A program made the position numbers and the translations under genes. Shown here one piece after another: positions 23,237-56,424 of a stretch of 64,000 nucleotides of DNA (within the stretch, counting starts at the first letter, position 1; every line of letters begins with the position of its first letter). The DNA is from Pseudomonas sp. GM78 (GTDB lineage Bacteria > Pseudomonadota > Gammaproteobacteria > Pseudomonadales > Pseudomonadaceae). The notes beneath the pieces are model-generated. The model was given only the letters and a program-made list of their open reading frames with translations, searched no databases and had not been told where the DNA came from. The stretch is taken from contig NZ_AKJF01000056.1 of NCBI RefSeq assembly GCF_000282475.1, forward strand, positions 1 through 64,000, given 5' to 3'.

Positions 23237-26200
23237 ATGAATGCTGAAGACTCCTTGAAACTTGCTCGCCGGTTTATCGGGTTGCCCCTGGAAAAGCGCC
23301 AGATGTTCCTTGCGGCCTTGCACAAGGAGGGCGTGGATTTCGCCCGGTTTCCGATTCCTGCGGGGGTGGAGGCCGAGGATCGCCAGGCGCTGTCGTACGC
23401 ACAGCAACGCATGTGGTTTCTCTGGCAGCTGGACCCGCAAAGCGGCGCCTATAACTTGCCGGGTGCGGTGCGCCTGACCGGTAACCTGAATCTGCCGGCG
23501 CTGGAACAGGCATTCGCCAGCCTGGTGGCGCGCCACGAAACCTTGCGCACGGTGTTCGCCGCACAGGCCGACGACAGCTTGCTGCAAGTGCCGGCCACAG
23601 CGCCGCTGCTAATCGAACAAGTCGATTTCAGCGCCTTACCGGCCACCGAGCGCGAGCAGGCCGTGGCCGAAGCCGCCGAGCGCCAATCGGTGCTGCCATT
23701 CGATCTGGGCACTGGCCCGTTGCTGCGCGTGACCTTGCTCAAGCTCGCCGAACAGGAACACGTCCTGCTGCTGACCCTGCACCACATCGTGTCCGACGGC
23801 TGGTCGATGAACGTGCTGATCGACGAATTCATCCGCTGCTACGACGCCTTCGATGCCGGCGCGCAACCGCAACTGGCAGCCTTGCCGATCCAGTACAGCG
23901 ACTACGCCCTGTGGCAACGCCGCTGGCTGGAGGCGGGCGAGCAGGCGCGTCAGCTCGACTACTGGCAGGCGCAACTGGGCGACGAACACCCGGTGCTGGA
24001 GCTGCCCATCGATCACCCGCGCCCGGCGATGCCGAGCTATCGCGGCACCCGCTACGAGTTCGCCGTCGACGGCCAGCTGGCCGAGCAACTGCGGGCCACC
24101 GCGCAGAAACACAACATCACCTTGTTCATGCTGCTGCTCGGCGCCTTCAACGTGCTGCTGCACCGCTACACCGGGCAGACCGACATCCGCGTCGGCGTAC
24201 CGATCGCCAACCGCAACCGCGCCGAGATCGAAGGCCTGATCGGCTTCTTCGTCAACACCCAGGTGCTGCGTACGCAACTGGACGGCCAGACCCGGGTCGA
24301 CGACCTGCTGCGCCGCATCAAGGAAACCGCACTTGGCGCCCAGGCTCACCAGGACCTGCCGTTCGAGCGCCTGGTCGAAGCGCTGAAACTGGAGCGCAGC
24401 CTCAGCCACACGCCGCTGTTCCAGGTGATGTACAACCACCAGCCGCAGGTCGCGGACATCTCCACGGTGACCACGGCGTCCGGCCTGGCGCTGGGCACGA
24501 TCGAGTGGCAAGGGCGCACCACCCAGTTCGACCTGACCCTGGACACCTACGAAAAAGGCGGCAAGCTGCACGCCGCGCTGACCTACGCCAACGACCTGTT
24601 CGACGCCGCGACCATCGCGCGCATGGCGCAACATTGGACGCACCTTTTACAGGGCATGGTCAGCGATACCCAGCAGCGCATCAGCGATCTGCCGCTGCTG
24701 GAACAAGCCGAATACCAACTCATCGTCCATGACTGGAACCGCGCCGACGACGGCTTCGCCCAAGACCTGTGCATTCATGAACTGATCAGCCAGCAAGTCG
24801 CCGCGACCCCGGATGCGCTTGCCGTGACCTTCGCCACTCGCCAGCTGACTTATGGCGAACTCGACCACCAAGCCAATCGCCTGGCGCACAAGCTGATCGA
24901 ACTCGGCGTCGGCCCGGAAGTGCGGGTGGGCGTGGCCATCCAGCGTTCCGAGCAACTGCTGGTGGCCTTGCTGGCAGTGCTCAAGGCCGGTGGCGCCTAC
25001 GTGCCGCTGGACCCGGATTACCCCGCCGAACGCGTGGCCTACATGCTCGAAGACAGCCGCGCGCTCGTGCTGCTGACCGAAGCGGAAGTGGCCAGGACCC
25101 TGAGCGTGGCGAGCGATACCCAAGTGTTGCTGATGGACAGCCTCGCGTTGGCGGCTTACCCCATCAGCGCCCCGGTCACCGGCGTCACGCCGGACAACCT
25201 GGCCTACGTCATCTACACCTCCGGTTCCACCGGCAAGCCCAAGGGTGTGGCGATTGCCCATCGCAACGTGCTGGCGCTGATCGACTGGTCGCAGGCGGTG
25301 TACAGTCGCGACGACATCCAGGGCGTGCTGGCTTCAACGTCGGTGTGCTTCGACCTGTCGGTGTGGGAACTGTTCGTCACCCTGGCCAACGGCGGATCGC
25401 TGATCATTGCCCGCAACGCCCTGGAGTTGTCGCAGCTGCCGGCCCGGGATCAGGTGCGCTTGATCAACACCGTGCCCTCGGCGATCAACGCGCTGCAGCG
25501 CGACGGGCACATCCCGCCGAGCGTGCGCATCATCAACCTGGCCGGTGAGCCGTTGAAACAAAGCCTGGTGGACGCGCTGTACCAGCAGCCGACCGTCGAG
25601 CACGTCTACGATCTGTACGGCCCTTCGGAAGACACCACCTATTCCACCTGGACCCGCCGCGAGGCCGGTGGCCGCGCCAATATCGGCCGCCCGCTCAAGC
25701 ACACCGCCAGCTATCTGCTGGACGCCGACCTGCAACCGGTGCCACAAGGCGTATCCGCCGAGCTGTACCTCAGTGGCGCGGGCATCACCCGTGGTTACCT
25801 GGCACGGCCAGGCCTGACTGCGGAAAAGTACGTACCCAACCCGTTTTCCAGCACCGGCGAACGCCTGTACCGCACCGGTGACCTGACTCGTTATCAGGCC
25901 GACGGCACCCTGCAGTACGTTGGCCGCATCGACCATCAGGTCAAGGTCCGTGGCTTGCGCATCGAGCTGGGTGAAATCGAAGCGCGGCTGTTGCAACAGG
26001 ACGCGGTGCGCGAACTGGCGGTGCTGGCCCAGGACGGCATCAACGGTCAGCACCTGGTGGCCTACATCGTGCCGAGCGATCCGGCGTTGCTGGTCGACCT
26101 CGATGCGCAAGCGACCCTGCGTGAATCCCTGAAAGCGGCCTTGCGTCAGCACCTGCCGGACTACATGGTCCCGGCGTTCCTGCTGTTCCTCGAGCAACTG

Positions 26201-29200
26201 CCGCTGACCCCCAACGGCAAACTCGACCGCAAGGCGTTGCCGGCGGTGGATGGCAGCCAGCAACAACGCGAACACGTGGCGCCACGCAGTGCGCTGGAAA
26301 AGTCCCTCGCGACGATCTGGCAAGACGTATTGGCCATCGACAACGTCGGCCTGGAAGACAATTTCTTCGAACTGGGCGGCGACTCCATCGTCTCGATGCA
26401 AGTGGTCAGCCGCGCCCGGCAGGCCGGGATCGTGCTCAGCCCCAAGGACCTGTTCCAGCATCAGACCGTCCGCAGCCTGGCCCAGGCGGCGCGCAGTGGC
26501 GAGCAACAGCTGATCGACCAAGGCCCGGCCAGCGGCGCGGTAGCGCTGGCGCCGGTGCAACAGTGGTTCTTCGAGCAGGCTATCCCTGCGCGTCAGCACT
26601 GGAACCAGTCGCTGTTGCTGGTACCGCGCGAGGCGTTGAACGTCGAAGCACTGGAGCGTGCCCTGGAACAATTTCTGACCCATCACGACAGCCTGCGCCT
26701 GCGTTATCAACCGACAGATAGCGGCTGGCAGCAGACCTATGCCGCGCCGACCACCGACTCGGTGCTGTGGCAGCGCCAGGCGCAATCGGTCGAAGCGCTG
26801 AACGCCTTGTGCGATGAAGCCCAGCGCAGTCTCGACCTGCACAACGGCCCGTTGCTGCGCGCACTGCTGGTGTCGATGGCTGACGGCAGCCAGCGTTTGC
26901 TGCTGGTGGTTCACCATCTGGCGGTGGACGGTGTGTCCTGGCGCGTGCTGCTGGAAGATCTCCAGCAGTTCTACAACGGCGCTGCGGCACCGGCAAAAAC
27001 CAGCAGCTACCAGCGCTGGGTCGCGCGTTTGCAGGATCACCTTCCAGCCTTCGAACTCAGCCTCGGCCACTGGCAGGCCCAACTGCAGGATGCGCCAGTC
27101 GACCTGCCGTGCGAACGCCCGCACGGCGCACTGGAAAACCGCTTCGAACACAAACTCGAAATCAAGCTCGATACCGAGCAAACCCGCCAGCTGCTGCAAC
27201 AGGCCCCAGCGGCCTACCGCACCCAGGTCAACGACCTGCTGCTGACCGCACTGGCACGCGCCGTTGGCCGCTGGAGCGGGCAGGGCAGCACGCTGATCCA
27301 GCTCGAAGGCCATGGCCGCGAAGACCTGTTCGATGACGTCGACCTGACGCGCACCGTGGGTTGGTTCACCAGCCTGTTCCCGGTCAACCTCAAACCAACT
27401 GCCGATCTCGGCGCCTCGATCAAAACCATCAAGGAACAACTGCGCAGCGTCCCGGACAAGGGGCTGGGCTACGGCGCGCTGCGCTACCTCGGCAGCGTAC
27501 AGACCCGCGCCGAACTGGCGGCGTTGCCGCAACCGCGCATCACCTTCAACTACCTGGGGCAGTTCGACCGTCAGTTCGACGAGGGTGCCTTATTCACCCC
27601 GTCCACCGAAGGCAACGGCATCGCGCAGAACCCGTCGGCCCCGCTGGGCAACTGGCTGGTGGTGGAAGGCCAGGTCTACGGCGGGGAGTTGTCCCTGAGC
27701 TGGGGCTTCAGCCGTGAGATGTTCGACACCGCGACCGTCCAGCACCTGGCTGACGATTACGCCCAGGAACTGATCGCACTGATCGAACATTGCTGCGCCC
27801 TGGAAGCACCGCAAGCCACGCCATCGGACTTCCCGCTGGCGCGCATCGATCAGGCACAACTGGACGGGCTGCCGCTCGCCGTCGCCAATCTCGAAGACCT
27901 GTACCCACTGTCGCCGATGCAGCAGGGCATGCTGTTCCACACCCTGTACGAACCGCAGGTCGGCGCCTATATCAGCCAGTTGCGCCTGGACATCGGCGGG
28001 TTGGACTCCGAGCGCTTTACCCGTTCCTGGCAAGCCGCGGTCGAGCGTCATGACATCCTGCGCAGCAGCTTCCACTGGCAAGGCCTCGATACCGCACATC
28101 AGGCGATTGCCCGTCAGGTCGCGTTGCCACTCGAAGTGCTTGAAGCGACTGACACCGATGCACTGGCCGACGCCGAGCGCGCGCAAGGTTTCGAGCTGGG
28201 CATGGCACCGTTGTTTCGCCTGAAACTGGTGCGTACCGGCGCTGACGCCTGGCACCTGATCTACACCAGCCACCACATCTTGATGGACGGCTGGAGCAAC
28301 GCGCAGTTGTTGGCCGAAGTGATCCAGCACTACGCCGCCGGCCAGCCGCTGCCAGCGCCAACGGGTCAATACCGCGACTACCTGGGTTGGTTGCAGCAGC
28401 AATCGGTGCCGGCTGGTGAAAAGTTCTGGAAAGCCGCATTGGCACCGCTGCAAGCACCGACCTTGCTGGCCGAAGCCTTGCGTCCACCGGTAGGCGCGAC
28501 GGGTAGCGAAGAGCATCGCGTCAGCCTCGACAACCGCGCCACCCAGCGTCTGGCCGAGTTCGCCCGTCAACAGAAAGTCACCCTCAACACCCTGTTGCAA
28601 GCGGCGTGGAGCCTGTTGCTGCAACGCTACACCGGCCAGGATTGCGTGGTGTTCGGCGCCACCGTGGCCGGGCGTTCGGCGCCGTTGCCGGGGATCGAAC
28701 AACAGCTGGGCCTGTTCATCAACACCCTGCCGCAGGTGTGCGCGATGAAACCGGACCAGACCGTCAGCCAGTGGCTGGGCGAATTGCAAGGCCTGAACCT
28801 GGCCATGCGCGAATTCGAGCATGTGCCGCTGTACGACATCCAGGGTTGGGCGGGGCAGCAGGGTTCTGCGTTGTTCGACAGCCTGTTGGTGTTCGAAAAC
28901 TTCCCGGTGGCCGAAGCGCTGAAGCAGGGCGCACCGGCCGGATTGACGTTCGGCAACCTGCACAACCACGAGCGCACCCACTATCCGCTGACCCTGGGCA
29001 TCGAATTGGGCGAAGGCCTGGGTCTGGAGTTCAGTTATGACGCGGCGCGTTTCAGCGCGGCTCAGGTCGCACAGTTGTCAGCTAATTTGCAGCACCTGCT
29101 GACGCAATTGGTGGCATCGCCGGAGGCGGCGTTGGGCTCGCTTGAGCTGTTGGACGTCGATGGAAAGCACGCGGTGCTCGCGATCAGCCAGCCGCCTGCG

Positions 29201-32200
29201 GTTGAGTTATCCACAACGCTTCTGGCCCACGAACAGATCGCCGCGCAAGCCGCCGCCACTCCCGACGCACTGGCATTGCAGGTAGACGGCCACACCCTGA
29301 GCTACGGCCAACTCAATGCACAAGCCAACGACCTGGCCCAGCGCCTGATCGACAATGGCGCCGGCCCCGGCAAGCGCGTCGGCCTGGCCGTACGCCGCGG
29401 CCCGCAACTGATCGTCAGCCTGCTGGCGGTCCTGAAAAGCGGCGCGGCCTACGTACCCCTCGATCCAAAATACCCAACCGAACGCCTGGCCTACATGATC
29501 GAAGACAGCCGCCTCGACGTGCTGCTCCACGAATCCGGCCTCCTCGAAGACGTACCTAACGTAAGACGCCTAACCCTCGAAGACACCACAACCCCTGTAG
29601 GAGCAAAGCTTGCTCGCGATAGCGGCCTCCCAACCGTTGAAGATCTCGCCTACATCATCTACACCTCCGGCTCCACTGGCCAACCCAAAGGCGTCGCCAT
29701 TACCCACGCCGCCCTGCGCGAGTTCTGCCAGACCGCCGCCGACTACTCAAAACTGTTACCCACCGATCGCGTCCTGCAATTCGCCACCTTCAGCTTCGAC
29801 GGCTTCGTCGAACAATGCTTCCCGGCATTGTGCGTCGGCGCAACCTTGATCATGCGCGGCGACGACCTGTGGGACGCCGGCCGACTGGCTGCAGAAATCG
29901 TCGGGCAGGGCGTGACGGTGGCCGACTTGCCGGCCGCCTACTGGTTCCTGCTGGCCCGCGAATGCGCCAGCGGCGTGGTGCAAAACCTCGGCGATTTGCG
30001 CCAGGTTCACGTCGGCGGTGAAGCCATGTCGGTGGAAGGCCTGCGCCTGTGGCATCAGTCCGGCTTGAGCCACGTGCGCCTGCTCAACACCTACGGCCCG
30101 ACCGAGGCGACCGTGGTGTCCAGCGTGCATGAATGCCAATTGGCCGATGCCAGCGATGCCTTCGGCATTCCAATCGGCCGCGCCATTCCCGGCCGTGCGC
30201 TGTACGTGCTGGACGCTGCCGGTCAGCTACTGCCGGCCGACGGCGTCGGCGAGTTGTGCATCGGCGCGCCGGCCTGCCTGGCGCAAAGCTATTTCGACCG
30301 TCCGGCGCTGACCGCCGAACGTTTCCTGCCGGACCCGTTTGCCCGCGAACCGGGCGCACGGCTGTACCGCAGCGGCGATCTGGCGCGCTACAACGGTAAC
30401 GGCGATCTGGAGTACGTCGGGCGTATCGACCACCAAGTGAAGATTCGCGGTTTCCGCATCGAGATGGGCGAGATCGAAGCCTGCCTGCAGGCCCGGGACG
30501 AGGTGCGCGAAGCCGCCGTCATCGCCCAGGACGGCACACAGTTGGTGGCCTACGTCGTCGCCAGCGGCGCGGTGGTTGCGCAGGCTGAATACCTGGCAGG
30601 GCTCAAAGCCATCCTGCAGCGATCGTTGCCGGACTACATGGTGCCCAACCACATGGTCCTGCTCGACAGGTTGCCGCTCAATAACAACGGCAAGCTCGAC
30701 CGCAAGGCCTTGCCACGGGTTGAAGCGGGCGATGCTCAACGTGCCTTTGTAGCGCCTGCCGAAGGTCTGGAAATGCAACTCGCGCAGATCTGGCAAGAAG
30801 TGCTGCAGGTCGAGAAAGTCGGTCGTGACGACAACTTCTTCGAGCTGGGCGGCCACTCGTTGCTGGTGCTGCAAGTGATCTCCCGTGTACGTCAGCACCT
30901 GCAACTTGAGCTGTCGGTGAGCAGCCTGTTCTCGGCGGCGAATCTGGCGGAGTTCGCCGAGCGCGCTGCGCAAGCGAGCCTCAGCGGCCAACCGCCGCTG
31001 CAACGCGCAGCAGACGATCAGCCACGCCTGCTGTCCTACGCCCAGCAACGCCAGTGGATTCTCTGGCAACTGGACCCGCACAGCGCGGCCTACAACATCC
31101 CGGCGGCGCTGCGCCTCAAAGGCCCGCTGAACCGCGACGCCCTGCGCAAAACCTTCGCCCAGTTGCAGCTGCGCCACGAAACCTTGCGCACCACCTTCGA
31201 ACAGGATGGTCAGCAGGCGCGCCCGGTGGTGCATGTCGAGCTGCCATTGCAGTTCAACGAACAACCCATCGATGAGTCGGCGATCAACAGTGCGGTGGCC
31301 GCAGAAATCGCCCAACCTTTCGATCTGCGCAACGGCCCGCTGTGGCGCTGTTTGCTGCTTCAAGTCAGCGCCGAAGACCATGTGCTGGTACTCACCGTGC
31401 ACCACATCGCCGCCGATGGCTGGTCGATGCAGGTGATGGTCGATGAGTTCAGCGCGCTGTATCAGGCTGCCGTTGACGGGCGTGCAGCCAACCTGTCGGC
31501 ACTGCCGGTGGCTTACAGCGACTACGCCCGTTGGCAACGCGACTGGCTGGAAGCCGGCGAGGGCGCGCGGCAACTGGCGTGGTGGCGCGAGCAACTGGCG
31601 GGCAGCCAGGCGCCGCTGGAGTTGCCGAGCGAACTGACCTGCCCGGCCCGCCGTAGCGAGCATGGCGCCAGCCTGACGTTGAACGTCGATCGCCAGCTGC
31701 TGGCCGGTTTGCGTAAGCGTGCGCAGGAGCAGCAAGTGACGTTGTTCATGCTATTGCTGGCGAGTTTCCAGACCCTGCTGCACCGCCAGAGCGGGCAGTC
31801 GGGCATCAGCGTCGGCGTGCCGAGTGCCGGCCGTTCGCGTCTGGAAACCGAAGGCCTGATCGGCTTCTTCATCAACACCCAGGTGCTGCGCGCCGAGATC
31901 GACGGGCAGCAGCCGTTCAGCGCGCTGCTGCAACAGGTCAAGCAAACGGCATTGGCCGCGCAGGCGCATCAGGATTTGCCGTTCGAGCAACTGGTGGATG
32001 CCCTGCAACCGGATCGCAGCCTCAATCACAGCCCGTTGTTCCAAGTGCTCTACAACCATCAACAAAAACTGGGTGCCAGTGTCGAGCGCGCAGTGGTCGA
32101 TTTGCAGGTCGAGCGCCTGCATTGGCAGCAACACACCGCGCAATTCGATCTGCTGCTCGACACTCAGGAGCAGGGCGATGAACTGGACGCCAGCCTGAGC

Positions 32201-34216
32201 TACGCCACCGATCTGTACGACGCGGCCTCGATGCAGCGCTTCGCCGAACAGTGGTTGAACCTGTTGCGCGCAGTGGTCGAAAACCCACAGCAGCGCGTGG
32301 GTGAATTGCCGTTGCTGCAAGCGCCGCAATACGACGGGTTGATCCAGCACTGGAATCCGGCCTTCGAGGCACAAGCGCAATCGCCAACCTTGCATCAGCT
32401 ATTCGAAGCTCAAGCCGCGCAACGGCCGGACGCCATCGCACTGACCTGCGAAGGCGAGCAGCTGAGCTACGCTGCGCTCAACGCCCAGGCCAACCGCCTG
32501 GCGCACAAACTGCGCGAGCAGGGTGTCGGCCCAGAAGTGCGCGTAGGTATCGCCACCGAGCGGGCGATGCCGCTGGTAGTGGGCTTGCTGGCGATTCTCA
32601 AGGCCGGTGGCGCTTACGTGCCGCTGGACCCGCAATACCCGGCCGAGCGCCTGAGCTACATGATCGATGACAGCGGCATTGGCTTGTTGTTGACCCAGGC
32701 TCACCTGATTGACGGGTTGCCGTCCCGCGAAGGTGTGCAGGTCCTGGACCTGGCGGCGTTGCAGCTGGACCGCTACAGCACCGATAACCTGGCGCCATTG
32801 GCGACCCCGGACAACCTCGCCTACGTGATCTACACCTCCGGTTCCACCGGCCGCCCCAAGGGCGCCTTGCTCAGCCATGGCAACGTCGGGCGCTTACTCA
32901 CGGCCACCGCGGGCGAATTCAATTTCGGCGCCGACGATGTCTGGACCCTGTTCCACTCCTACGCCTTCGATTTCTCGGTGTGGGAGCTGTTCGGTTCGCT
33001 GTGCACCGGGGGGCGCCTGGTAATCGTGCCGTATTACATCAGTCGCGAGCCGCAGGAGTTCCACCGCTTGCTCTGCGATGAAGGGGTGACGGTGTTGAAC
33101 CAGACCCCGACCGCGTTCCGCCAGCTGTTGCCGATCGCCTGCGCCAGCCCGCGCAGCCTGGCGTTGCGCCAGGTGATCTTCGGTGGCGAGGCGCTGGAAG
33201 TGGCCAGCCTACGCCCGTGGTTCGAACGCTTCGGCGACCGGCAACCGACCCTGGTGAACATGTACGGCATCACCGAGACCACGGTGCACGTGACCTACCG
33301 CGCGATCCGCCTGGCCGACCTCGACGGCAAGGCCCAGAGCCCGATCGGCCTGCCGATCCGCGACCTGCGCTGGTACTTGCTCGACAGCCAGTTGCAACCG
33401 GTGCCGGTGGGCGTGGCGGGCGAGCTGTACATCGCCGGTGCCGGCCTGGCGCGGGGTTATCACGGGCGTTTCGGCCTGACCGCCGAGCGTTTCGTGCCGA
33501 GCCCGTTCGACGCCTCGCAGCGCCTGTATCGCAGCGGCGACCTGGCGCGCCAGCGGGCCGACGGCAGCATCGACTACCTGGGGCGGATCGACCAGCAAGT
33601 GAAGATCCGCGGGTTCCGCATTGAACTGGGCGAGATCGAAGCGGCCGTGCTGGCGCAACCGGGCGTGCGTCAGGCGGTGATCAGCGTGCATGTCGATGAC
33701 GGCGGTCCGCAGCTGTGCGCCTACGTTGTCGGCGAACACCTGCCGAACGATCCGATCGCCTGGCGCGACACCCTGCGCGCCGCGCTGAAAGTCGACCTGC
33801 CGGACTACATGGTGCCCAGCCACTGGCTGCTGCTCGATGCATTGCCGCTGACCAGCAACGGCAAGCTCGACCGCAAGGCCTTGCCGCTGCCGGACGCCCA
33901 AGACTGGCAGCGTCCGTTCGAGGCCCCCGAAGGCGAGCTTGAACAGCAACTGGCCGCGATCTGGGCCGAGGTGCTGGGCGTGGCCCGGATCGGCCGGCGC
34001 GACAACTTCTTTGAATTGGGCGGGCATTCGCTGCTCGCCGCCCAGGCCAATGCCCGCGTGGAACTGGAACTGGGCATCGAGCTGCCGCTGCGCGCACTGT
34101 TCGAAAGCAACGACCTTCAGGCTTATGCCGCCAACGCCGGGCAACACGCCCCGACTGACAACGATGCACGCCTGGATGCGCTTGAGTCGCTTCTGGACGA
34201 GATGGAGTTCAACTGA
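23237..34216 (+). CDS. Pyoverdine side-chain NRPS, three modules (C-A-T-E / C-A-T / C-A-T)
   Basis: A 3659-residue synthetase of the PvdI/PvdJ type. Domains: C (about 50-490, LCL type), A (510-1005), T (Ser1050), E (1105-1530, HHLAVDGVSW), C (1555-1980, DCL type, YPLSPMQQGMLFH), A (1995-2495), T (Ser2541), C (2600-3030, LCL type), A (3050-3550), T (Ser3598), then a short acidic tail probably docking to the next NRPS. Specificity residues read by eye: module 1 D-L-W-N-N-A-L-T-Y (Ala-like; D form because of E), module 2 D-G-E-D-H-G-T-V-V (Lys-like), module 3 D-F-W-N-I-G-M-V-H (Thr). The first domain is a condensation domain, so it takes a chain from another NRPS, presumably PvdL, encoded elsewhere. 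A REP palindrome is translated within module 2. It ends overlapping the next NRPS (TGATG). Confidence 0.95.
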   Translation: MNAEDSLKLARRFIGLPLEKRQMFLAALHKEGVDFARFPIPAGVEAEDRQALSYAQQRMWFLWQLDPQSGAYNLPGAVRLTGNLNLPALEQAFASLVARHETLRTVFAAQADDSLLQVPATAPLLIEQVDFSALPATEREQAVAEAAERQSVLPFDLGTGPLLRVTLLKLAEQEHVLLLTLHHIVSDGWSMNVLIDEFIRCYDAFDAGAQPQLAALPIQYSDYALWQRRWLEAGEQARQLDYWQAQLGDEHPVLELPIDHPRPAMPSYRGTRYEFAVDGQLAEQLRATAQKHNITLFMLLLGAFNVLLHRYTGQTDIRVGVPIANRNRAEIEGLIGFFVNTQVLRTQLDGQTRVDDLLRRIKETALGAQAHQDLPFERLVEALKLERSLSHTPLFQVMYNHQPQVADISTVTTASGLALGTIEWQGRTTQFDLTLDTYEKGGKLHAALTYANDLFDAATIARMAQHWTHLLQGMVSDTQQRISDLPLLEQAEYQLIVHDWNRADDGFAQDLCIHELISQQVAATPDALAVTFATRQLTYGELDHQANRLAHKLIELGVGPEVRVGVAIQRSEQLLVALLAVLKAGGAYVPLDPDYPAERVAYMLEDSRALVLLTEAEVARTLSVASDTQVLLMDSLALAAYPISAPVTGVTPDNLAYVIYTSGSTGKPKGVAIAHRNVLALIDWSQAVYSRDDIQGVLASTSVCFDLSVWELFVTLANGGSLIIARNALELSQLPARDQVRLINTVPSAINALQRDGHIPPSVRIINLAGEPLKQSLVDALYQQPTVEHVYDLYGPSEDTTYSTWTRREAGGRANIGRPLKHTASYLLDADLQPVPQGVSAELYLSGAGITRGYLARPGLTAEKYVPNPFSSTGERLYRTGDLTRYQADGTLQYVGRIDHQVKVRGLRIELGEIEARLLQQDAVRELAVLAQDGINGQHLVAYIVPSDPALLVDLDAQATLRESLKAALRQHLPDYMVPAFLLFLEQLPLTPNGKLDRKALPAVDGSQQQREHVAPRSALEKSLATIWQDVLAIDNVGLEDNFFELGGDSIVSMQVVSRARQAGIVLSPKDLFQHQTVRSLAQAARSGEQQLIDQGPASGAVALAPVQQWFFEQAIPARQHWNQSLLLVPREALNVEALERALEQFLTHHDSLRLRYQPTDSGWQQTYAAPTTDSVLWQRQAQSVEALNALCDEAQRSLDLHNGPLLRALLVSMADGSQRLLLVVHHLAVDGVSWRVLLEDLQQFYNGAAAPAKTSSYQRWVARLQDHLPAFELSLGHWQAQLQDAPVDLPCERPHGALENRFEHKLEIKLDTEQTRQLLQQAPAAYRTQVNDLLLTALARAVGRWSGQGSTLIQLEGHGREDLFDDVDLTRTVGWFTSLFPVNLKPTADLGASIKTIKEQLRSVPDKGLGYGALRYLGSVQTRAELAALPQPRITFNYLGQFDRQFDEGALFTPSTEGNGIAQNPSAPLGNWLVVEGQVYGGELSLSWGFSREMFDTATVQHLADDYAQELIALIEHCCALEAPQATPSDFPLARIDQAQLDGLPLAVANLEDLYPLSPMQQGMLFHTLYEPQVGAYISQLRLDIGGLDSERFTRSWQAAVERHDILRSSFHWQGLDTAHQAIARQVALPLEVLEATDTDALADAERAQGFELGMAPLFRLKLVRTGADAWHLIYTSHHILMDGWSNAQLLAEVIQHYAAGQPLPAPTGQYRDYLGWLQQQSVPAGEKFWKAALAPLQAPTLLAEALRPPVGATGSEEHRVSLDNRATQRLAEFARQQKVTLNTLLQAAWSLLLQRYTGQDCVVFGATVAGRSAPLPGIEQQLGLFINTLPQVCAMKPDQTVSQWLGELQGLNLAMREFEHVPLYDIQGWAGQQGSALFDSLLVFENFPVAEALKQGAPAGLTFGNLHNHERTHYPLTLGIELGEGLGLEFSYDAARFSAAQVAQLSANLQHLLTQLVASPEAALGSLELLDVDGKHAVLAISQPPAVELSTTLLAHEQIAAQAAATPDALALQVDGHTLSYGQLNAQANDLAQRLIDNGAGPGKRVGLAVRRGPQLIVSLLAVLKSGAAYVPLDPKYPTERLAYMIEDSRLDVLLHESGLLEDVPNVRRLTLEDTTTPVGAKLARDSGLPTVEDLAYIIYTSGSTGQPKGVAITHAALREFCQTAADYSKLLPTDRVLQFATFSFDGFVEQCFPALCVGATLIMRGDDLWDAGRLAAEIVGQGVTVADLPAAYWFLLARECASGVVQNLGDLRQVHVGGEAMSVEGLRLWHQSGLSHVRLLNTYGPTEATVVSSVHECQLADASDAFGIPIGRAIPGRALYVLDAAGQLLPADGVGELCIGAPACLAQSYFDRPALTAERFLPDPFAREPGARLYRSGDLARYNGNGDLEYVGRIDHQVKIRGFRIEMGEIEACLQARDEVREAAVIAQDGTQLVAYVVASGAVVAQAEYLAGLKAILQRSLPDYMVPNHMVLLDRLPLNNNGKLDRKALPRVEAGDAQRAFVAPAEGLEMQLAQIWQEVLQVEKVGRDDNFFELGGHSLLVLQVISRVRQHLQLELSVSSLFSAANLAEFAERAAQASLSGQPPLQRAADDQPRLLSYAQQRQWILWQLDPHSAAYNIPAALRLKGPLNRDALRKTFAQLQLRHETLRTTFEQDGQQARPVVHVELPLQFNEQPIDESAINSAVAAEIAQPFDLRNGPLWRCLLLQVSAEDHVLVLTVHHIAADGWSMQVMVDEFSALYQAAVDGRAANLSALPVAYSDYARWQRDWLEAGEGARQLAWWREQLAGSQAPLELPSELTCPARRSEHGASLTLNVDRQLLAGLRKRAQEQQVTLFMLLLASFQTLLHRQSGQSGISVGVPSAGRSRLETEGLIGFFINTQVLRAEIDGQQPFSALLQQVKQTALAAQAHQDLPFEQLVDALQPDRSLNHSPLFQVLYNHQQKLGASVERAVVDLQVERLHWQQHTAQFDLLLDTQEQGDELDASLSYATDLYDAASMQRFAEQWLNLLRAVVENPQQRVGELPLLQAPQYDGLIQHWNPAFEAQAQSPTLHQLFEAQAAQRPDAIALTCEGEQLSYAALNAQANRLAHKLREQGVGPEVRVGIATERAMPLVVGLLAILKAGGAYVPLDPQYPAERLSYMIDDSGIGLLLTQAHLIDGLPSREGVQVLDLAALQLDRYSTDNLAPLATPDNLAYVIYTSGSTGRPKGALLSHGNVGRLLTATAGEFNFGADDVWTLFHSYAFDFSVWELFGSLCTGGRLVIVPYYISREPQEFHRLLCDEGVTVLNQTPTAFRQLLPIACASPRSLALRQVIFGGEALEVASLRPWFERFGDRQPTLVNMYGITETTVHVTYRAIRLADLDGKAQSPIGLPIRDLRWYLLDSQLQPVPVGVAGELYIAGAGLARGYHGRFGLTAERFVPSPFDASQRLYRSGDLARQRADGSIDYLGRIDQQVKIRGFRIELGEIEAAVLAQPGVRQAVISVHVDDGGPQLCAYVVGEHLPNDPIAWRDTLRAALKVDLPDYMVPSHWLLLDALPLTSNGKLDRKALPLPDAQDWQRPFEAPEGELEQQLAAIWAEVLGVARIGRRDNFFELGGHSLLAAQANARVELELGIELPLRALFESNDLQAYAANAGQHAPTDNDARLDALESLLDEMEFN
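29593..29625 (+). repeat. REP palindrome inside the NRPS coding sequence
   Basis: CCCTGTAGGAGCAAAGCTTG followed by CTCGCGATAGCGG matches the intergenic REP units of this window, with the internal GAGCAA/TTGCTC stem. It is read in frame as PVGAKLARDSG (about residues 2120-2130) between core motifs A2 and A3. Confidence 0.85.
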
Positions 34217-37200
34217 TGGAACACAGCACTGCCCAGCGTATCGCCACCCGTTTCGCCGGCTTGCCTGCCGAAAAACGCCGCGAGTTCCTGACCAAAATGC
34301 AGGAGCAGGGCGTGAGCTTCGGCCAACTGCCGATCCCGCCCGCCGCCGAACCACAAGCGACCTTCGAGCTGTCCTATGCGCAGCAGCGCCAATGGTTCCT
34401 CTGGCAGCTCGACCCACAGGGTTCGGCCTACAACATTCCCGCGGCCCTGCGTCTGCAGGGGCCGCTGAACCTTGCGGCGCTGCAACAGAGTTTCGACGTG
34501 CTGCTGGAGCGCCATCAGAGCCTGCGCAGCCGCTTTGTCGAGGACGACGGCCAGGTGATGCAAGCCCTGGCGAGCTTCAACACGCTGCCCATCGAACAGC
34601 ACGATCTGCGTGCCGAACCCGAGGCGCTGCGCCTTGAATCGGCGATGAAAACAGTCGAAGCGGAGATTGCCCGGCCGTTCGACCTGCAGCACGGCCCGCT
34701 GTTGCGCGTCAGCCTGTTGCAGCTGGACGTTGATGATCATGTGCTGGTGCTGACCCTGCACCACATCGTCACCGATGGCTGGTCGATGGGGGTACTGGTC
34801 GAGGAATTTTCAAGGCTCTACGCAGCCTATTGCCAAGGCCAGAGCGCTGAGCTTGAAACGCTGCCGATCCAGTATTCGGACTATGCCGCCTGGCAGCGTC
34901 GCTGGATGGAAGCGGGGGAGCTGGACCGTCAACTCAATTGGTGGCGGGAAAAGCTCGGCAGCGAACAACCGTTGCTGGAATTGCCTACCGACCGCCCACG
35001 CCCTGCACAACCGAGCCAGCAGGGCGCGCGCCTGGATTTCGCCCTCGACTCAACATTGGCCCGCGGCCTGATGAGCCTGGCCAAACAGCGCGGCGTCACG
35101 CCGTTCATGCTGTTGCTGGCGAGTTTCCAGGCGCTGCTCTATCGCTACAGCGGCCAGTCCGACCTGCGCATCGGCGTGCCCATCGGCAACCGTAACCGTG
35201 CGGAAACCCGTGGCCTGATCGGCTTTTTCGTCAACACCCAGGTGATGCGCGCCGAACTCGATGGCCGGCTGCCGTTCACCCAGTTGCTCGACCAGACCCG
35301 CGCCTTTGCGCTGGATGCCCAGGATTATCAGGACTTGCCGTTCGAGCGCCTGGTGCAGGCGCTGCAAGGCGAGCGCAGCCTGAGTCACAGCCCGTTGTTC
35401 CAGGTGATGTTCAACCACCAGCAGGCCAAACCCGCAGCGGTCAGCGGCTTGCTGGCCGGCCTTCGTGTCCAGGCACTGAACGCCACGGCGCACACCACCC
35501 AGTTCGACCTGCAACTGGACACCCAGGAAGAGGGCGACAAGCTGTTCGCCAGCCTGACCTACGCCACCGACCTGTTCGACGCCGAACGCATCGAGCACCT
35601 GGCCCGGCATTGGCGCAACCTGCTGGCCGGGGTGCTGGCGAACCCGCAAGCCCCGCTGGCCGAATTGCCATTGCTGGATGCTGACGAGCACCTGCGCATT
35701 CTCGACGACCTCAACGACACCGCTCAAGCCTATCCGGGCGACGTCTGCGTACAGCGGCATTTCGAAGCGCGGGTGATGGAAAGTCCCCAGGCGACGGCGC
35801 TGGTGTTCCAGGGCCAGTCCCTGAGCTACGCCGAGCTCAACCTGCGCGCCAATCGCCTGGCCCACCACTTGCGCGCCCAGGGTGTCGGACCGGAAGTGAT
35901 CGTGGGGATCGCCTGCGAGCGTTCGCTGGAAATGGTCGTCGGCCTGCTGGCGATCCTCAAGGCCGGCGGTGCCTACGTGCCGCTGGACCCGGAATACCCG
36001 CTCGATCGCCTGAGCTACATGATCGAGGACAGCGGCATTTCCCTGCTGTTGACCCAGGAGCACCTGCTGGCGCAACTGCCGACGCCGGACAGCGTGCGCA
36101 CCCTGTGCCTGCAAGCGCACGCCGAGTGGCTGAGCGACCTGCTAGGCGAGGATCTGCCCAACCTGGCTGTCGGCGAAAACCTCGCCTACATGATCTACAC
36201 CTCCGGCTCCACCGGAAAACCCAAAGGCGCGGGCAACCGTCATGTCGCCTTGCATAACCGCCTTGAGTGGATGCAGCAGGCCTACAACCTTCTGCCGAGC
36301 GACCGCGTGCTGCAAAAGACGCCGTTCAGTTTTGACGTGTCGGTGTGGGAGTTTTTCTGGCCGTTGATCAAAGGCGCCACGCTGGTCATCGCCGCCCCGG
36401 GTGAACATCGCGATCCGCAGCGCCTTGCCGCACTGATCGTCGAGCAGGCGATCACCACGCTGCACTTCGTGCCGTCGATGCTTTCGGCCTTCATCGCTGC
36501 CGACGAGGCGCTGGCCTGCACCTCGCTGACCCGCATCATCTGCAGCGGCGAAGCATTGCCCATGGAGCTGCAACGCCAGACCCTGCGCAGCCTGCCGCAA
36601 GTCCATCTGTACAACCTGTATGGCCCGACCGAAGCGGCCATCGACGTCACCCACTGGACCTGTGTGGAAGAGGGCCGCGACAGCGTGCCGATCGGCCGGC
36701 CGATCGCCAACCTGCGCACCTTGATCCTCGACAGCGAACTGCAGCCCTTGCCGCTGGGCGCGGTGGGCGAACTGTACCTGGGCGGTATCGGCCTGGCCCG
36801 GGGTTATCACCGCCGTGGCGCGTTGACCGCCGAGCGTTTTGTGGTCGACCCGTTCGGCAGCGGCGAGCGCCTGTACCGCACCGGTGACCTGGCGCGCTAC
36901 CGCGCCGACGGTGCCATCGACTATTGCGGACGCATCGACCATCAAGTGAAGATTCGCGGCTTGCGTATCGAGCTGGGGGAAATCGAAGCGCGCCTGCAAG
37001 AACATGCCGGCGTGCAGGAAGCCGTGGTGCTGGCCCTCGACAGCCCGATCGGCAAGCAGCTGGTGGCGTACATCGTGCCGCAGGATCGCGGCTTGGTCGG
37101 CGCCGATGCGCAGCAGCAAGGCGCCTGGCGCGAAACCCTGAAAAGCCATCTGCTCGGCAGCCTGCCGGACTACATGGTGCCGGCGCAGACCGTGCTGATT

Positions 37201-40200
37201 GAACAGATGCCCCTGAGCCCCAACGGCAAACTCGAGCGCAAGCGCCTGCCGGCACCGACCGCGCAGGTCAGCCAGCGCGCGTTCGAAGCACCGCGCAGCG
37301 AACACGAGCGCGTGCTGGCGCAGATCTGGCAGGACGTGCTGGGCCTGGAGCAGGTCGGCCGTCAGGACAACTTCTTTGAACTGGGCGGTGACTCGATCAT
37401 TTCGATCCAGGTGGTCAGCCGCGCCCGCCGTGCCGGCCTGAGCCTGCAACCGCGCGACCTGTTCCAGCAGCAGACCCTGCAAGCGCTGGCCGCGGTGGTG
37501 AAAGAACAAGCCGCACCGCTGGCGCAGCAAGGGCCGGTCGACGGTGTGCAAACACTCACGCCGATCCAGCGCTGGTTCTTCGAAGAACCGATTCCACAGC
37601 GTGCCCACTGGAACCAGGCGGTGTTGCTGACGCCGCGCGAAACCCTCGAACTGCCGCGCCTGCAAGGCGCCCTGCAACGCGTGCTCAAGCAACACGATGC
37701 CCTGCGCTTGCGTTTCAGCCAGGTCGACGGCCAATGGTCGGCGCGTTATGTCGGTGCCGACAGTGCCGATGTCATCGACATGCTCTGGACCGCCCGCGTG
37801 GCCAGTGATGCGTCGCTGGAATCGGTGTGCGATGAAGCCCAGCGCAGCCTCAGCCTGCAGGACGGGCCGCTGCTGCGCGTGGCGCTGATCGCCCAGGCCG
37901 ATGGTTCGCAACGTTTGCTGTTGGTCATCCACCACCTGGCGGTGGATGGAGTGTCCTGGCGCGTGCTGCTGGAAGATTTGCAGGCCGCGTATCAAGGCCA
38001 GGACCTGCCGCCCAAGACCAGTGCCTTCCAGGCCTGGGCGGACAAGCTCGATGCTTATGCCAAGTCCGAAACGGCCATGAATGAGTTGAGCTGGTGGCAG
38101 AGTCATCTGCACGGTGCCAGCGATTCGTTGCCGGCGGCCAATGCACAAGCGAATCAGGCCGGTCATTTGCGCCAGGGCGTCAGCATCGGTCTGGACCGCG
38201 AACAAACCCGCCAACTGCTGCAGCAGGCCCCGGCGATCTACCGCACCCAGGTCAACGACCTGCTGCTGACCGCACTGGCGCGTACCCTCAGCCGTTGGAC
38301 CGACAGCCAATCAGCACTGATCCAGCTCGAAGGCCACGGCCGCGAAGAGCTGTTCGACGACATCGACCTGACCCGCACGGTCGGCTGGTTCTCCAGCCTG
38401 TTCCCGGTGCGCCTGACGCCGACGGCCGACCTTGGTGGCTCGATCAAGGCGATCAAGCAGCAACTGCGGGACATCCCCGGCAAAGGCCTGGGCTACGGCC
38501 TGTTGCGCTACATGGGCGATGCAGCAGCGCAAGCGGCGGTGGCCGCGTTGCCGCAAGCACGGGTGACCTTCAACTACCTCGGCCAGTTCGACCAGAGCTT
38601 TGCCGAGGACGCGCTGTTCACGCCCGCACGCGAATCCAGCGGCGCCGCGCAGTCGGCGGATGCGCCGTTGCCGAACTGGCTGTCGGTGGACGGCCAGGTC
38701 TATGGCGGTGAACTGAAACTCGACTGGACTTTCAGCCGCGAATGCTTCGAGCTGCGCGAGATCGAAGCCCTGGCGAACGATTTCCGCGCTGAACTGTTGG
38801 CGCTGATCGACCATTGCCTGAGCGACGGCGCGGGCGGCGTGACCCCGGCGGACTTCCCGCTGGCGCGTTTGAGCCAGGCGCAACTCGATGGTCTGCCGGT
38901 GCCGCCGGCGCAGATCGAGGATGTCTACCCGCTGTCGCCGATGCAGGCGGGTCTGTTGTTCCACAGCCTCTACGAATCCGAGTCTGGCGCCTACGTGAAC
39001 CAGCTCAGCGTCGAAGCTCGTGGCCTCGATGCCGATCGTTTGGGCCGTGCCTGGCAAGCCGTGCTCGACAGCCACGCGATCCTGCGCAGCAGCTTCCACT
39101 TCCCCGAAGGTTTCGAGGCACCGGTGCAACTGGTGCATCGTCATCTGCCATTGCCGATGACCTGCCTCGACTGGCGTGGCCGCGAGAATCAGGCCGATGC
39201 GCTGGCGCAACTGATCGACAGCGAACGCCTGCAACTCGATCCGACCCGCGCCCCGCTGATGCGCCTGGCCCTGGTGCGCCTGGACGACGAGCGCCAGCAA
39301 CTGATCTACACCCACCATCACCTGCTGCTCGATGGCTGGAGCAACTCGCTGCTGCTCAGTGAAGTCCTGCAGCGTTATGCCGGGCAGGATGTACCCGCAC
39401 CCACCGGGCGATTCGCCGACTACATCGGCTGGCTGCAACGCCAGGATGCCGAGGCTGACGAGCTGTTCTGGCGCGAGCAACTGGCGAGCCTCGACAACCC
39501 GACGCTGCTGGCCGAGACCATGGGTTTCAACAACCGGGCGGACGCGGTATTTGCCGATCACCGCCAGACCTTCGACGTCGCCACCAGCCAGCGCTTCAGC
39601 GACTTTTCCCGGCAGCAGAAAGTGACGCTCAACACCCTGGTGCAAGGTGCGTGGGCACTGTTGCTGCAACGCTACAGCGGCCAACGCAGTGTGGCGTTTG
39701 GCGCCACGGTGGCGGGGCGCCCGGTGGATTTGCCGGGGGCCGAAAGCCAGCTCGGCCTGTTCATCAACACCTTGCCGGTGATCAGCAGTCCGGACGCGGT
39801 GGAAAGTGTCGAGCAATGGCTGACGCGTTTACAGGCGCAGAACCTGGAACTGCGCGAGCACGAATTCACCGCACTGGGCGACATTCAGCGTTGGGCCGGA
39901 CGCGCCGGCGAGCCGCTGTTCGACAGCCTGCTGGTGTTTGAAAACTTCCCGGTCGCCGAAGCCTTGCAGCAGGGCGCACCGGCTGGCTTGAGCTTCTCCA
40001 TCCCACAGAACCACGAGCGCACCAATTTCCCGCTGACCCTGGCGGCCACAGCCGAAAACCAGCTCAGCATCCACTGGAGCTACCAGTGCAGCCACTTCAG
40101 CCGCGAAGCGATTGCACGCATGAGCGAGCACCTGGCCGCGCTACTGGCGGCAATGGTCGCCGCGCCACAGGCGGCCTTGAGTGAGCTGGACCTGCTGACC

Positions 40201-43200
40201 ACCGCGGAACGCACCCAGCAATTGCTGGAGTGGAACCCGCCGTTCAGCGCAGAAGAAAACCCGCTGTGCGTGCATCAACTGATCGAGGCCCAGGCCGAGA
40301 TTCGTCCAGATGCCACGGCGCTGATCTTCAACGACCTGGAACTGAGCTTCGACCAGCTCAATCGCCGCGCCAACCAATTGGCCCATCGCCTGCGCGCCTT
40401 GGGCATCGGCCCGGAAGTGCGGGTCGGCCTGGCCATGCAGCGTTCGCCAGAAATGATCATCGGCCTGCTGGCGATCCTCAAGGCCGGCGGCGCCTACGTG
40501 CCGCTGGACCCGGCCTACCCGGCGGATCGCCTGCGCTACCTGATGGAAGACAGCGGGATTTCGCTGCTGATCAGCCAATCCTGGTTGCGGGAAAAACTGC
40601 CGCTTCCCGAAGGCTTGCCGGTGCTGGAAATCGACAGCGAACCGCTGGAGGCCATGGCTGAGAGCAACCCGGTCAACCTCACTTGCGGTGAGAACCTCGC
40701 CTACCTCATCTATACCTCGGGCTCCACCGGCCGGCCCAAAGGCGTCAGCGTGGCCCACGGCCCGCTGGCCATGCACTGCGTGAAGATCGGCGAGTTGTAC
40801 GGCATGACTCCGGACGACCGCGAACTGCAATTTGCCTCGATCAGCTTCGACGGCGCCCATGAGCGCTGGCTGACGCCGCTGGTGTTCGGTTCGGCAGTGA
40901 TGCCCCGCGACGACGAGTTGTGGAGCGTGGAGCGCACCTGCGCCGAGATCGAAAAGCACGGCATCACCATCGCCTGCTTCACCCCGACCTACCTGGGGCA
41001 GATCGCCGATTTCATGGGCGAAGCCGGGCGTGACCTGCCGATCCGCTCCTACACCCCGTGCGGTGAGGGCATGGCCAAGCATGCGTTCGACGAGGTTCAG
41101 CAAGTCCTGCAACCCAAGCGCTTGATCAACGGCTATGGCCCGACCGAAACGGTGATCACGCCGCTGATCTGGCTGGCCTATCCGGATACCGAATTTGATT
41201 CGGCCTTCATGCCGATCGGCCGCCCGGTGGGCAACCGCAGCGCCTACATCCTCGACGGCGGCTTGCAGCCGTTGCCGGTCGGCGTGGCGGGTGAGTTGTA
41301 CCTGGGCGGCGAGGGCGTTGCCCGTGGTTATCACCAACGCCCGGACCTGACTGCCGAACGCTTCGTGCCCGATCCGTTCGTGCCGGGGGCGCGTCTGTAC
41401 CGCAGTGGCGACCTGGCGCGGTTCCGTGCCGATGGCGTCGTCGAATACCTGGGCCGTATCGACCAGCAAGTGAAGATTCGCGGCTTCCGTATCGAACTCG
41501 GCGAAATAGAAGCCTGCCTGCTCGAACATGAAGGCGTGCGTGAAGCCTTTGTGATTGATCGCGAAAGTCCGGTGAGCCGTCAACTGGTGGGCTACGTGGT
41601 GCCGCGCGATCCGCTGGCTGACGAGCAGGATCTGCGTGACGCATTGACGTCGCACCTGCGCAGCCGCTTGCCGGCGCACATGCTGCCGGCGCATTTGATG
41701 TGCCTGGCCGCGTTGCCGCTGACGCCGAATGGCAAGCTCGATCGCCAGGGTTTGCCAGCGCCTGAAGCAACACGGCAGAGTCACGATCAGGTGGCCGCCG
41801 CGTCGCCTGCCGAAGCGCTGTTGGTGGAAATCTGGCAGGACTTGCTCGGTCTGGAATCGGTGGGCGTCACCGAAAACTTCTTCGAACTGGGCGGTGACTC
41901 GATCATCTCGCTGCAAGCGGTGAGCCGTGCCGGGCTGCGCGGGCTGGTGTTCAGTCCCAAGCAACTGTTCGAGCAGCAGACCATTCGCGCCCTCGCAGCC
42001 GTGGCCGGCAGCCGTGAAGCCGCGCTGGTCGAAGCGCCGAAGGTCGAGGCATTTGCGCTGGTGCCATTTATCGACGTGTCTGCCCGCGAAGGTCTGCAAG
42101 ACCTGTATCCGCTGTCGCCGATGCAGCAGGGCATGCTGTTCCATTGCCTCGAATCACCGCAGCTCAACCCCTACGTCAACCAATTGAGCGTGGCGGTGGA
42201 CGGCTTGCAGGTGCCGCGATTCCGCGCGGCGTGGCAGGCGTTGATCGAGCGTCATGAGGTGCTGCGCGCGGCGTTCCGTTGGCGTGACGGCCTGGCCGAT
42301 CCGCTGCAAGCGGTGTTCGCCAGCGTCGAGTTGCCGATTGAAGAGTTCGACTGGCGCGAGCGCACGGACACCGAGCAAGCGCTGAGCGAACTGGCGGCCG
42401 CTGAGCAGGCCAAGGGTTTCGACCTGAGCTGCCCGCCGCTGATGCGCTTCATTCTGGTACGCCTGGGTGAAGAGCGGTACCAGATGATCTGGATCTACCA
42501 CCACCTGCTGCTCGATGGCTGGAGTGCTTCGCGCCTGCTGGGCGAGATGCTGCGCCTGTATCACCACGACAGCCTGCCGGCGCTGACCGGGCGTTACGCC
42601 GACTACATCGCCTGGCTGCAACGCCAGGACGAGGCGCAGGCAGAAAGCTTCTGGCGTGAGCGCCTGGCGTCGCTCGAGGCACCGACCATCCTGGCCACGG
42701 CATCGGGCGCAGAAGGCTCCGGCCACGGCGTGATGTACAGCGACCTCGACGCCGAGGCGACGCGCAAGTTGCACAGCTTCGCCAAGCGCCAGCGCGTCAC
42801 CCTCAACACCCTGGTCCAAGGCGCCTGGCTGTTGCTGCTGCAACGTCACAGCGGCCAGCGCAGCGTGGCGTTCGGGGCCACGGTGGCGGGGCGGCCGACG
42901 GGGCTGGCCGGTGCCCAGGACATGCTCGGCCTGTTCATCAACACCTTGCCGGTGATCCAGACCCTCGACCCGCAACAGCCGCTGGGCGAGTGGTTGCGCG
43001 ACTTGCAGGACTACAACCTGGCCGTACGCGACTACGAACACACGCCATTGTCCGACGTGCAGCGCTGGGCCGGGCAGGGGGGGCAGGGCCTGTTCGACAG
43101 CATCATCGTGTTTGAAAACCATCCGGTGGACCGCGCCTTGAAAGGGGGCGAGGAAGGTGAGTTGCGCTTCGCCGAAGTCGGCAGCGGCGGCGTCACCAAC

Positions 43201-45978: not shown

Positions 45979-46048
45979 CTGTAGGAGCATGGCTTGCCCG
46001 CGATGGCGCACCTGAGATCGCCATCGCGGGCAAGCCATGCTCCTACAG
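45979..46048. repeat. Inverted pair of REP palindromes
   Basis: Tightly spaced facing REP units (GCATGGCTTGCCCGCGAT type, spacer about 10 bp) directly after the NRPS stop; could form one long hairpin. Confidence 0.85.
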
Positions 46049-54901: not shown

Positions 54902-56251
54902 TCAGTTTTTGGCGACGGGCCTGGAGGATTTTTCGACCTGGTCCCAGACCCGCAGGAAATTACCGCCCCAGAGTTTGGCGATATCGGCCTCGCTGTAACC
55001 GCGGCTGATCAGCTCGGCGGTCACGTTGCGCGCCTCGCTGACGTCCTTCCAGCCGTCCAGGCCGCCGCCATCGTTGAAGTCGGAACTGATGCCGACGTGA
55101 TCGATGCCGATTTTCTTCACCGCGTAGTCAATCGCGTCGCCGTAGTCCTTGAGGGTGGCCTTGGGTTCTTCGTCGACAATCGCGTAGAGCTGGCTGGCGT
55201 ATTCGCCGAAACGTTGTTCAGACCATACGGTGATGATCGGGTCGCCCGGCATCAACGCCATCTCCAGGCCTTGCAGCGGTTGCAGGTCGAAACGCGCACG
55301 CAGGGCGTTGAGTTTGTCCTGGGTGGCCTGGCTCAGTGGGCGGATGTAGGTCGGGAAGCCGACGATCTGCACCACGCCGCCGCTGTCCTTGATCAACTGC
55401 ATTTCGTGGTCGCTGAGGTTGCGCGGGATGTCCACCAGGGCGCGCGGGGCGGAGTGCGATGCCACCATCGGCGTGCGGCTCAAGCGGGCCACTTGCTCCA
55501 GGGCCTTGGTCGACATCTGCGACACGTCGATGATCACACCGAGGTCGTTGAGACGGTGCACCGCCTGCTTGCCGATGTCCGAGAGACCGCCGAGGGCGTC
55601 CCGGGAATCGTTGAAGAACGGCAACGGCCTGGATGAATCGGCCCAGGCGTTGTTGCCCACATAGCTGAAGCCGAACATGCGCATGCCCCGCGCGGCCCAT
55701 TTGTCCAGGGCATTGAGGTCGTTGCCCAGCGGGTAGGCGTTGAGCATGCTGAGGAAAATCGCGAACTTGCCTTCGCCATGCAGGCGCCGGAAATCGTCGG
55801 GGGTGTAGGCGATGGCGGCCTGGTTGGGGAAGTCGCGCACCAGGGCGCTGATGATTTTGTAGCGGGTTTCCTGTTCGAAGCGTGCCTCTTCGATGAAGCC
55901 GGCGGTGGGGCGATGCGGCGCGTTGGGGCCGTTCCAGATTTCCGGCCAGCCGAAAATCGTCAGGGCCGCCCCGGACAGGCGTCCGCGCCCGCTCTTGACC
56001 AGGTCGAACTGGCCGCTGCCGTCCTTGTCGGCTTCATTGCCGGCGGTGCCGAAATCCATGGGCACGGTGATGTGGCTGTCGAACGAGAGAAGGCGCTCAT
56101 GCAGTTCATCGGCCTGCTTCATCACCTTGACCGGGTAGCCGGGATTGTCCTTGAACCAGTAATCCCAAGCCGCAAAGCCTGCACCCGCGCTGATCGCCAG
56201 GGCCAACGGCAGGCCGATGAAAAGAGCCTTTTTCGAACGTGGTTTTGTCAT
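54902..56251 (-). CDS. pvdM: Periplasmic dipeptidase-family pyoverdine maturation protein PvdM
   Basis: A 449-residue membrane dipeptidase (M19) family protein. The N-terminus has one membrane segment (KKALFIGLPLALAISAGAGFAAW) that directs it to the periplasm. The metal-binding region begins FDSHITVPMDFG, and the later stretches SHSAPRAL and HVGISSDFND are conserved in the family. PvdM is needed for chromophore formation; it works with PvdP in the oxidation of ferribactin. The start at 56251 is chosen from the membrane segment; the frame extends upstream through REP sequence. First gene of pvdMNO, with its own iron-starvation box. Confidence 0.93.
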   Translation of the reverse strand: MTKPRSKKALFIGLPLALAISAGAGFAAWDYWFKDNPGYPVKVMKQADELHERLLSFDSHITVPMDFGTAGNEADKDGSGQFDLVKSGRGRLSGAALTIFGWPEIWNGPNAPHRPTAGFIEEARFEQETRYKIISALVRDFPNQAAIAYTPDDFRRLHGEGKFAIFLSMLNAYPLGNDLNALDKWAARGMRMFGFSYVGNNAWADSSRPLPFFNDSRDALGGLSDIGKQAVHRLNDLGVIIDVSQMSTKALEQVARLSRTPMVASHSAPRALVDIPRNLSDHEMQLIKDSGGVVQIVGFPTYIRPLSQATQDKLNALRARFDLQPLQGLEMALMPGDPIITVWSEQRFGEYASQLYAIVDEEPKATLKDYGDAIDYAVKKIGIDHVGISSDFNDGGGLDGWKDVSEARNVTAELISRGYSEADIAKLWGGNFLRVWDQVEKSSRPVAKN

Positions 56252-56289
56252 TGCCTTCTCAGTCAGGGAGCCTTTGCTATCTGGGAGGA

Positions 56290-56313
56290 ACGAGTCAGCG
56301 GGGGAGGAATTTA
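56290..56313 (-). promoter_or_regulatory. PvdS iron-starvation box of pvdMNO
   Basis: On the minus strand: TAAAT, 16 nt, CGT, a full match, 38 bp before the pvdM ATG. Confidence 0.9.
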
Positions 56314-56329
56314 GTGTTTGTTCTGACGC

Positions 56330-56402
56330 CATCGCTGGCAAGCCAGCTCCCACAGGGATCTCCAGTGTTCGCACGGTCACTGTGGGAGCTGGCTTGTCGG
56401 GT
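56330..56402. repeat. REP pair between divergent pvdM and pvdP promoters
   Basis: Facing REP units of the CATCGCTGGCAAGCCAGCTC type. The right unit is altered at its outer end (GGCTTGTCGGG instead of GGCTTGCCAGC). It sits exactly between the two iron-starvation boxes. Confidence 0.8.
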
Positions 56403-56424
56403 CGCCGCATCGCAGCGAAGCTTT

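Follow-up and report, generated by a model that had tools for sequence, protein, structure and literature searches.

How does a REP unit, a type of repeat for which an extragenic location is one of the defining features, come to be translated as part of an NRPS adenylation domain, and does it serve any purpose there? The question is raised by a 64,000-nucleotide stretch of DNA from Pseudomonas sp. GM78 (contig NZ_AKJF01000056.1, positions 1 to 64,000; hereafter the window), in which an original prediction, made from the letters alone, had placed such a unit inside a large NRPS gene. In the definition given within PMC3686654, a REP consists of a 5′ GT(A/G)G tetranucleotide followed by a palindrome. 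REPs inside genes are already known, as part of Di Nocera et al. 2013 describes GTAG REPs that lie wholly within ORFs and are translated, and suggests that such insertions are tolerated in flexible linkers or loops (PMC3733652). We therefore considered the identity of the element, its occurrence in related genomes, the history of the loop that carries it, and the signs of function that might have kept it there.

Results

The REP unit within the second adenylation domain

The features concerned are as follows.

23237..34216, + strand: NRPS ORF, 3659 aa (2300 residues compared)
29222..30751, + strand: second adenylation domain of this ORF, bearer of the REP loop
29593..29625, + strand: REP unit, a GTAG-tagged palindrome, single and with no inverted partner (sequence search)
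29594..29626, + strand: codons for PVGAKLARDSG in the A2-A3 loop (translation)

The ORF contains four Condensation, three AMP-binding and three PP-binding stretches according to Pfam, and over the residues compared it is 82-96% identical to its counterparts in 22 other genomes and 63% identical to the outgroup. A neighbour of the NRPS cluster matches the TonB-dependent siderophore receptor family (TIGR01783) above cut-off and, going by this neighbour and by the original prediction, the cluster is a putative pyoverdine producer.

The unit, CCCTGTAGGAGCAAAGCTTGCTCGCGATAGCGG, has its first base at 29593. It is read in frame as PVGAKLARDSG between what we take to be motifs A2 and A3 of this module, as had been predicted, although the codons are shifted by one base from the span first assigned to them. 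At 29597-29619, GTAGGAGCAAAGCTTGCTCGCGA shows the GT(A/G)G tetranucleotide at its 5′ end and then the palindrome. An 18-mer from the 3′ part of the REP, GCTTGCTCGCGATAGCGG, has 11 matches in the window with at most three mismatches, the NRPS copy and other REPs among them, against an expectation of 0.16 from 100 shuffles, which rules out a chance match. The pattern TGTAGGAGC N3-7 GCTTGCTCGCGATAGCGG has three exact matches in the GM78 genome, and the other two belong to inverted pairs. The surrounding codons had also been described as less GC-biased than the rest of the gene, which the counts bear out: GC3 of 29540-29660 is 0.525 compared with 0.81 for the whole ORF, and only 12 of 3619 windows are as low, nine of them overlapping the site. 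Within this segment the REP codons have a GC3 of 0.36 and the remainder 0.59, so that the low values extend beyond the REP into its flank.

A regular expression for the REP core, which misses some units with different stems found by a looser search (e.g., at 56326, 58125 and 58196), matches 20 times in the window. Eighteen of these cores form nine inverted pairs, the singles being those at 1047 and 29597. When the cores are placed on 22 mechanical ORFs picked by hand, the one at 29597-29619 is alone in lying within the body of an ORF, and three further cores are about 40 bases or less from the end of one. The unit at 29597 stands alone, whereas a REPIN is made up of two nearby inverted REPs, and between 23097 and 45981 no second regex core accompanies it. 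REPs of this kind are numerous: the window has its 20 cores, and exact counts of three subtypes across the GM78 genome give 5, 5 and 23 copies. The same genome has three matches above cut-off to the PF01797 (Y1_Tnp) profile (C70, C142 and C117), which are candidates for the REP-associated tyrosine transposase (RAYT) that moves these REPs.

REP-bearing and REP-free relatives

Positions 29300-29900 of the window were compared with 298 genomes of the genus, GM78 included, and the loop was read in the 30 best loci. The REP was present in seven (GM78, G264, G274, G088, G167, G002 and G221) and absent from 23. A scan of genome_contigs (84,980 species per the tool description), in which exact matches to one forward REP consensus were sought 22-52 bases upstream of the A3 motif, returned 13 loci, all from Pseudomonas, all in this same NRPS module and all with the REP in the frame of the A domain. 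Five were already among the seven and eight were additional, the latter aligning with the window across about 7 kb at 82-88% identity, which brings the total to 15 REP-bearing genomes, including P. umsongensis DSM 16611, P. mandelii RIT-562 and P. gregormendelii LMG 28632. Given that all 13 scan loci are in this module, A-domain loops do not appear to be a general hotspot for the forward consensus.

The reading frame and the distance to motif A3 are identical in all 15 REP-bearing genes, and the REP copies are ungapped in the codon alignment from the GTA, GTG or GCA codon as far as motif A3; in G002 the tag has turned into GCAG. With the same element in 14 other genomes at the same frame and spacing, an assembly error is ruled out. 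Nor are the loop residues a conserved feature of the domain that merely resembles a REP, as the loop of the REP-free orthologues is unrelated. The copy is thus intragenic and in frame in 15 genomes, against the extragenic location expected of GTRG-REPs. G264, which is marked as the same species as GM78, is only 93% identical over 29300-29900, which hints at recombination or rapid change at the locus.

The loop with and without REP

Thirteen REP-free loci reached at least 75% identity in the 298-genome comparison; eight of them were placed in a codon alignment together with the 15 REP-bearing loci and the outgroup G122. The loop of the REP-free gene reads NPPNH-AVAEDLAY. In PS862 and GM41 a native-type loop ending in PQNH is followed by the REP and then by VAE, and it is this combination of native-type loop and REP which indicates that the event began as an in-frame insertion. 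PD9R retains part of the native residues, and in 10 of the 15 (s3h14, P. mandelii and the clade of eight that includes GM78) those ahead of the REP are lost.

Measured between fixed markers, the REP-free A2-A3 distance is 70 or 73 aa in the eight close orthologues and 77 aa in the outgroup. Among REP-bearing genes it is 84 aa in PS862 and GM41, 83 in PD9R, 81 in TNT3, 85 in P. gregormendelii, 62 in P. mandelii and 73-75 in the other nine, with 73 in GM78, and in nine of the 15 the loop is again near its native length. The A2-A3 distance had been put at about the same as in module 1; set against the REP-free orthologues, an unchanged distance is true of the GM78 gene (73 aa against 70 or 73) but does not extend to the bearers as a whole (62-85 aa). 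The accompanying claim, that the loop was replaced or absorbed and not simply lengthened, agrees with what is seen in GM78, where the native residues are gone at this near-native length.

By phmmer, the peptide falls in a gapped stretch ahead of A3 of linear gramicidin synthase, and we assume that the REP loop lies at the protein surface. By eye, TNT3 has one apparent extra in-frame 15-base copy of the 5′ part of the REP before the REP itself, and P. gregormendelii has two; an example of such a partial copy is CCTGCAGGAGCAAAG ahead of CCATCTGTAGGAGCAAAG. It is as if the REP were re-expanding by slippage.

Gene trees and REP subtypes

In the tree of the NRPS gene, from which the loop was removed, the REP-bearing genes are not one clade. 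REP state changes seven times on the full-gene tree, and a single clade for the 15 is rejected by 717 lnL units. The gyrB tree, in which many branches are weakly supported, is similar: a group of eight including GM78 is entirely REP-bearing and the other main group is mixed. In the NRPS tree, the REP-bearing TNT3 branches off directly after the outgroup.

Within 60 codons of the site there are three changes and one clade is compatible with the data (p 0.295), whereas with about 150 codons on each side one clade is rejected (p 0.011). Sliding windows at the site gave three changes with flanks of 40, 60, 80 or 100 codons and four with flanks of 150, short windows being of low power; the 66 control windows, which overlap and hence are not independent tests, gave a mean of 5.6 changes, with one reaching three and eight having four or fewer. 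The sole control window with three changes stops about 50 codons short of the site, on its upstream side. The idea that the REP may mark a recombination point therefore gains moderate support, in that REP state fits the genealogy next to the site better than the genealogy of the remaining gene; the support is for exchange of alleles at the site and not for the REP as its cause. The better fit near the site suggests one old insertion, which may have been followed by short-tract recombination between alleles and/or loss. Partial substitution of NRPS genes via horizontal transfer was described in 2024 for the pyoverdine synthetases of this species complex (in part of PMC11366639).

Exact copies of three REP subtypes were counted in 24 genomes. 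The GATAGCG subtype found in the NRPS gene is rare elsewhere in G221 (1 copy versus 38 of GATGGCG), P. mandelii (1 versus 73) and TNT3 (3 versus 50), a pattern that fits an inherited copy; GM41 and s3h14, by contrast, hold 35 and 20 other copies, respectively, and there the subtype is not rare. The NRPS copy of G167 and G002 is of the GAAGAGGCC subtype, of which their genomes hold 97 and 59 other copies, and shows a coupled stem change from AAG..GCT to AGG..GCC, which suggests that it was rewritten by conversion from genomic REPs. A rule whereby the gene copy follows the commonest REP type of the host is fitted by G167 and G002 but not by G274, which has the GAAGAGGCC tail in the NRPS gene and zero other copies in its genome, or by PS862, with 45 GAAGAGGCC copies elsewhere and a different tail in the NRPS gene, and these counts argue against so simple a rule. 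Among the three subtypes counted, GATGGCG also outnumbers the gene-carried type in P. mandelii, P. gregormendelii, TNT3 and GM41.

Tests for constraint

The predicted RNA fold of 29580-29640 has a z of -0.12, with 84 of 200 shuffles folding as well or better, and so gives no sign of a role as an RNA hairpin. The proposal of a message stability site gains no support from this ordinary folding. Variation in the 20-nt REP core is 0.064, compared with 0.157 for the gene and with 0.40 and 0.35 for the adjoining loop, the last two figures being drawn from columns filled in all 15 only, few of which are on the upstream side. However, the conservation of the core is equalled in 255 of 2245 gene windows, and its synonymous identity of 0.84-0.87 in 204 of 2156 windows of 7 codons, 126 of 2185 of 8 codons and 79 of 2193 of 9 codons. 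Strong constraint at the DNA level is thus not shown, the core being conserved against its own loop and unexceptional against the gene.

Discussion

We favour a single in-frame insertion of a REP, followed by trimming of native residues and then by exchange or loss of alleles, with no function of the REP involved, and we put the probability of this reading at about 0.68. An ancestor of the P. umsongensis/mandelii neighbourhood would have received the REP and a few flanking bases once, in the variable A2-A3 loop of this module, with about 45 nt replacing about 3 (by eye, GM41 against REP-free genes) and in what appears by eye to be the only stop-free forward frame of this REP. The reading frame would have been kept open, with a gain of about 14 residues. 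Deletion of the native residues ahead of the REP would then have followed in most lineages, leaving a loop made of REP-derived residues, and REP-bearing and native alleles would since have been swapped or lost, with short-tract homologous recombination as the most likely route.

That several REPs entered the one loop independently, whether as a favoured target or as one of few tolerated positions, we regard as unlikely. It would account for the presence of bearers in both main gyrB groups, the seven changes on the gene tree and the variation of REP tails by subtype among species, and there is a parallel in recB, where different REPs occupy about the same site in Xanthomonas campestris and X. 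oryzae (described within PMC3733652). However, frame and A3 spacing are identical in 15 of 15, and all 13 loci found in genome_contigs with the one forward consensus belong to this module and to no other A domain.

A further conjecture, which we would call rather doubtful, is that the REP loop is an exchangeable cassette, passed from species to species by short tracts and rewritten by ectopic conversion as in G167 and G002, so that the loop evolves in concert with the intergenic repeats. An insertion older than both groups, undone by many deletions or replacements with native loops, is improbable. Although TNT3 carries the REP as the first branch after the outgroup, the REP-free alleles have a common native-type loop and, in seven of eight, the GCG junction codon, so deletion alone would have had to restore the native loop exactly, and more than once; loss via recombination with native alleles, on the other hand, merges into the single insertion with allele exchange that we prefer. 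Retention of the REP for a function, as an RNA hairpin, protein-binding site or useful surface peptide, is highly improbable, since the low variation of the core and the coupled change in G167 and G002 are offset by the ordinary fold, the many gene windows of equal conservation and synonymous identity, and the match of the coupled change to a REP subtype that abounds in these two genomes, for which conversion also accounts. On these comparisons, the REP has most likely been carried along as a tolerated passenger and turned into loop sequence, without function in the protein or the message.

Like the intragenic GTAG REPs of Di Nocera et al. 2013, the NRPS unit lies wholly inside an ORF and is translated. 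The section 15 genes of that paper cover DNA repair, RNA-binding and others, with no NRPS named, and that section describes no counterpart of the step-by-step replacement that the native loop shows in the species compared here (PMC3733652); the NRPS loop is a clear new example of such intragenic REPs. In the literature, among the matches listed and outside subscription journals and supplements, titles and abstract openings contain no REP in an NRPS adenylation domain. Rickettsia palindromic elements (RPEs) are kept across species. They are likewise small palindromic repeats inside coding genes, in R. conorii, but are an analogue only, being from another host and, in the case of RPE-1, described as longer (within PMC3733652). 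The NRPS unit is of the same kind as the REPs of Pseudomonas REPINs, and inverted pairs account for most cores of the window, whereas the NRPS copy is a singlet; REP singlets are considered to be non-functional REPIN remnants in the portion of Bertels and Rainey 2011 that treats them (PMC3116915).

Living relatives display how a selfish repeat may turn into protein, with native loops, native loops plus REP, half-trimmed and replaced loops, and apparent partial copies. The locus also identifies an NRPS adenylation-domain loop in which about 14 extra residues occur naturally, and the REP loop offers a marker of short-tract recombination in NRPS synthetases.

Two other REPs of the window deserve mention. 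A compact inverted pair at 45981-46046 begins about a dozen bases past the stop codon that closes the second NRPS ORF (34216-45969) and may terminate its transcript. The REP unit at 56326 is near the start of the mechanical ORF 54902-56410, which is without an NCBIfam match, and the start of this ORF, or the ORF itself, has probably been misread.
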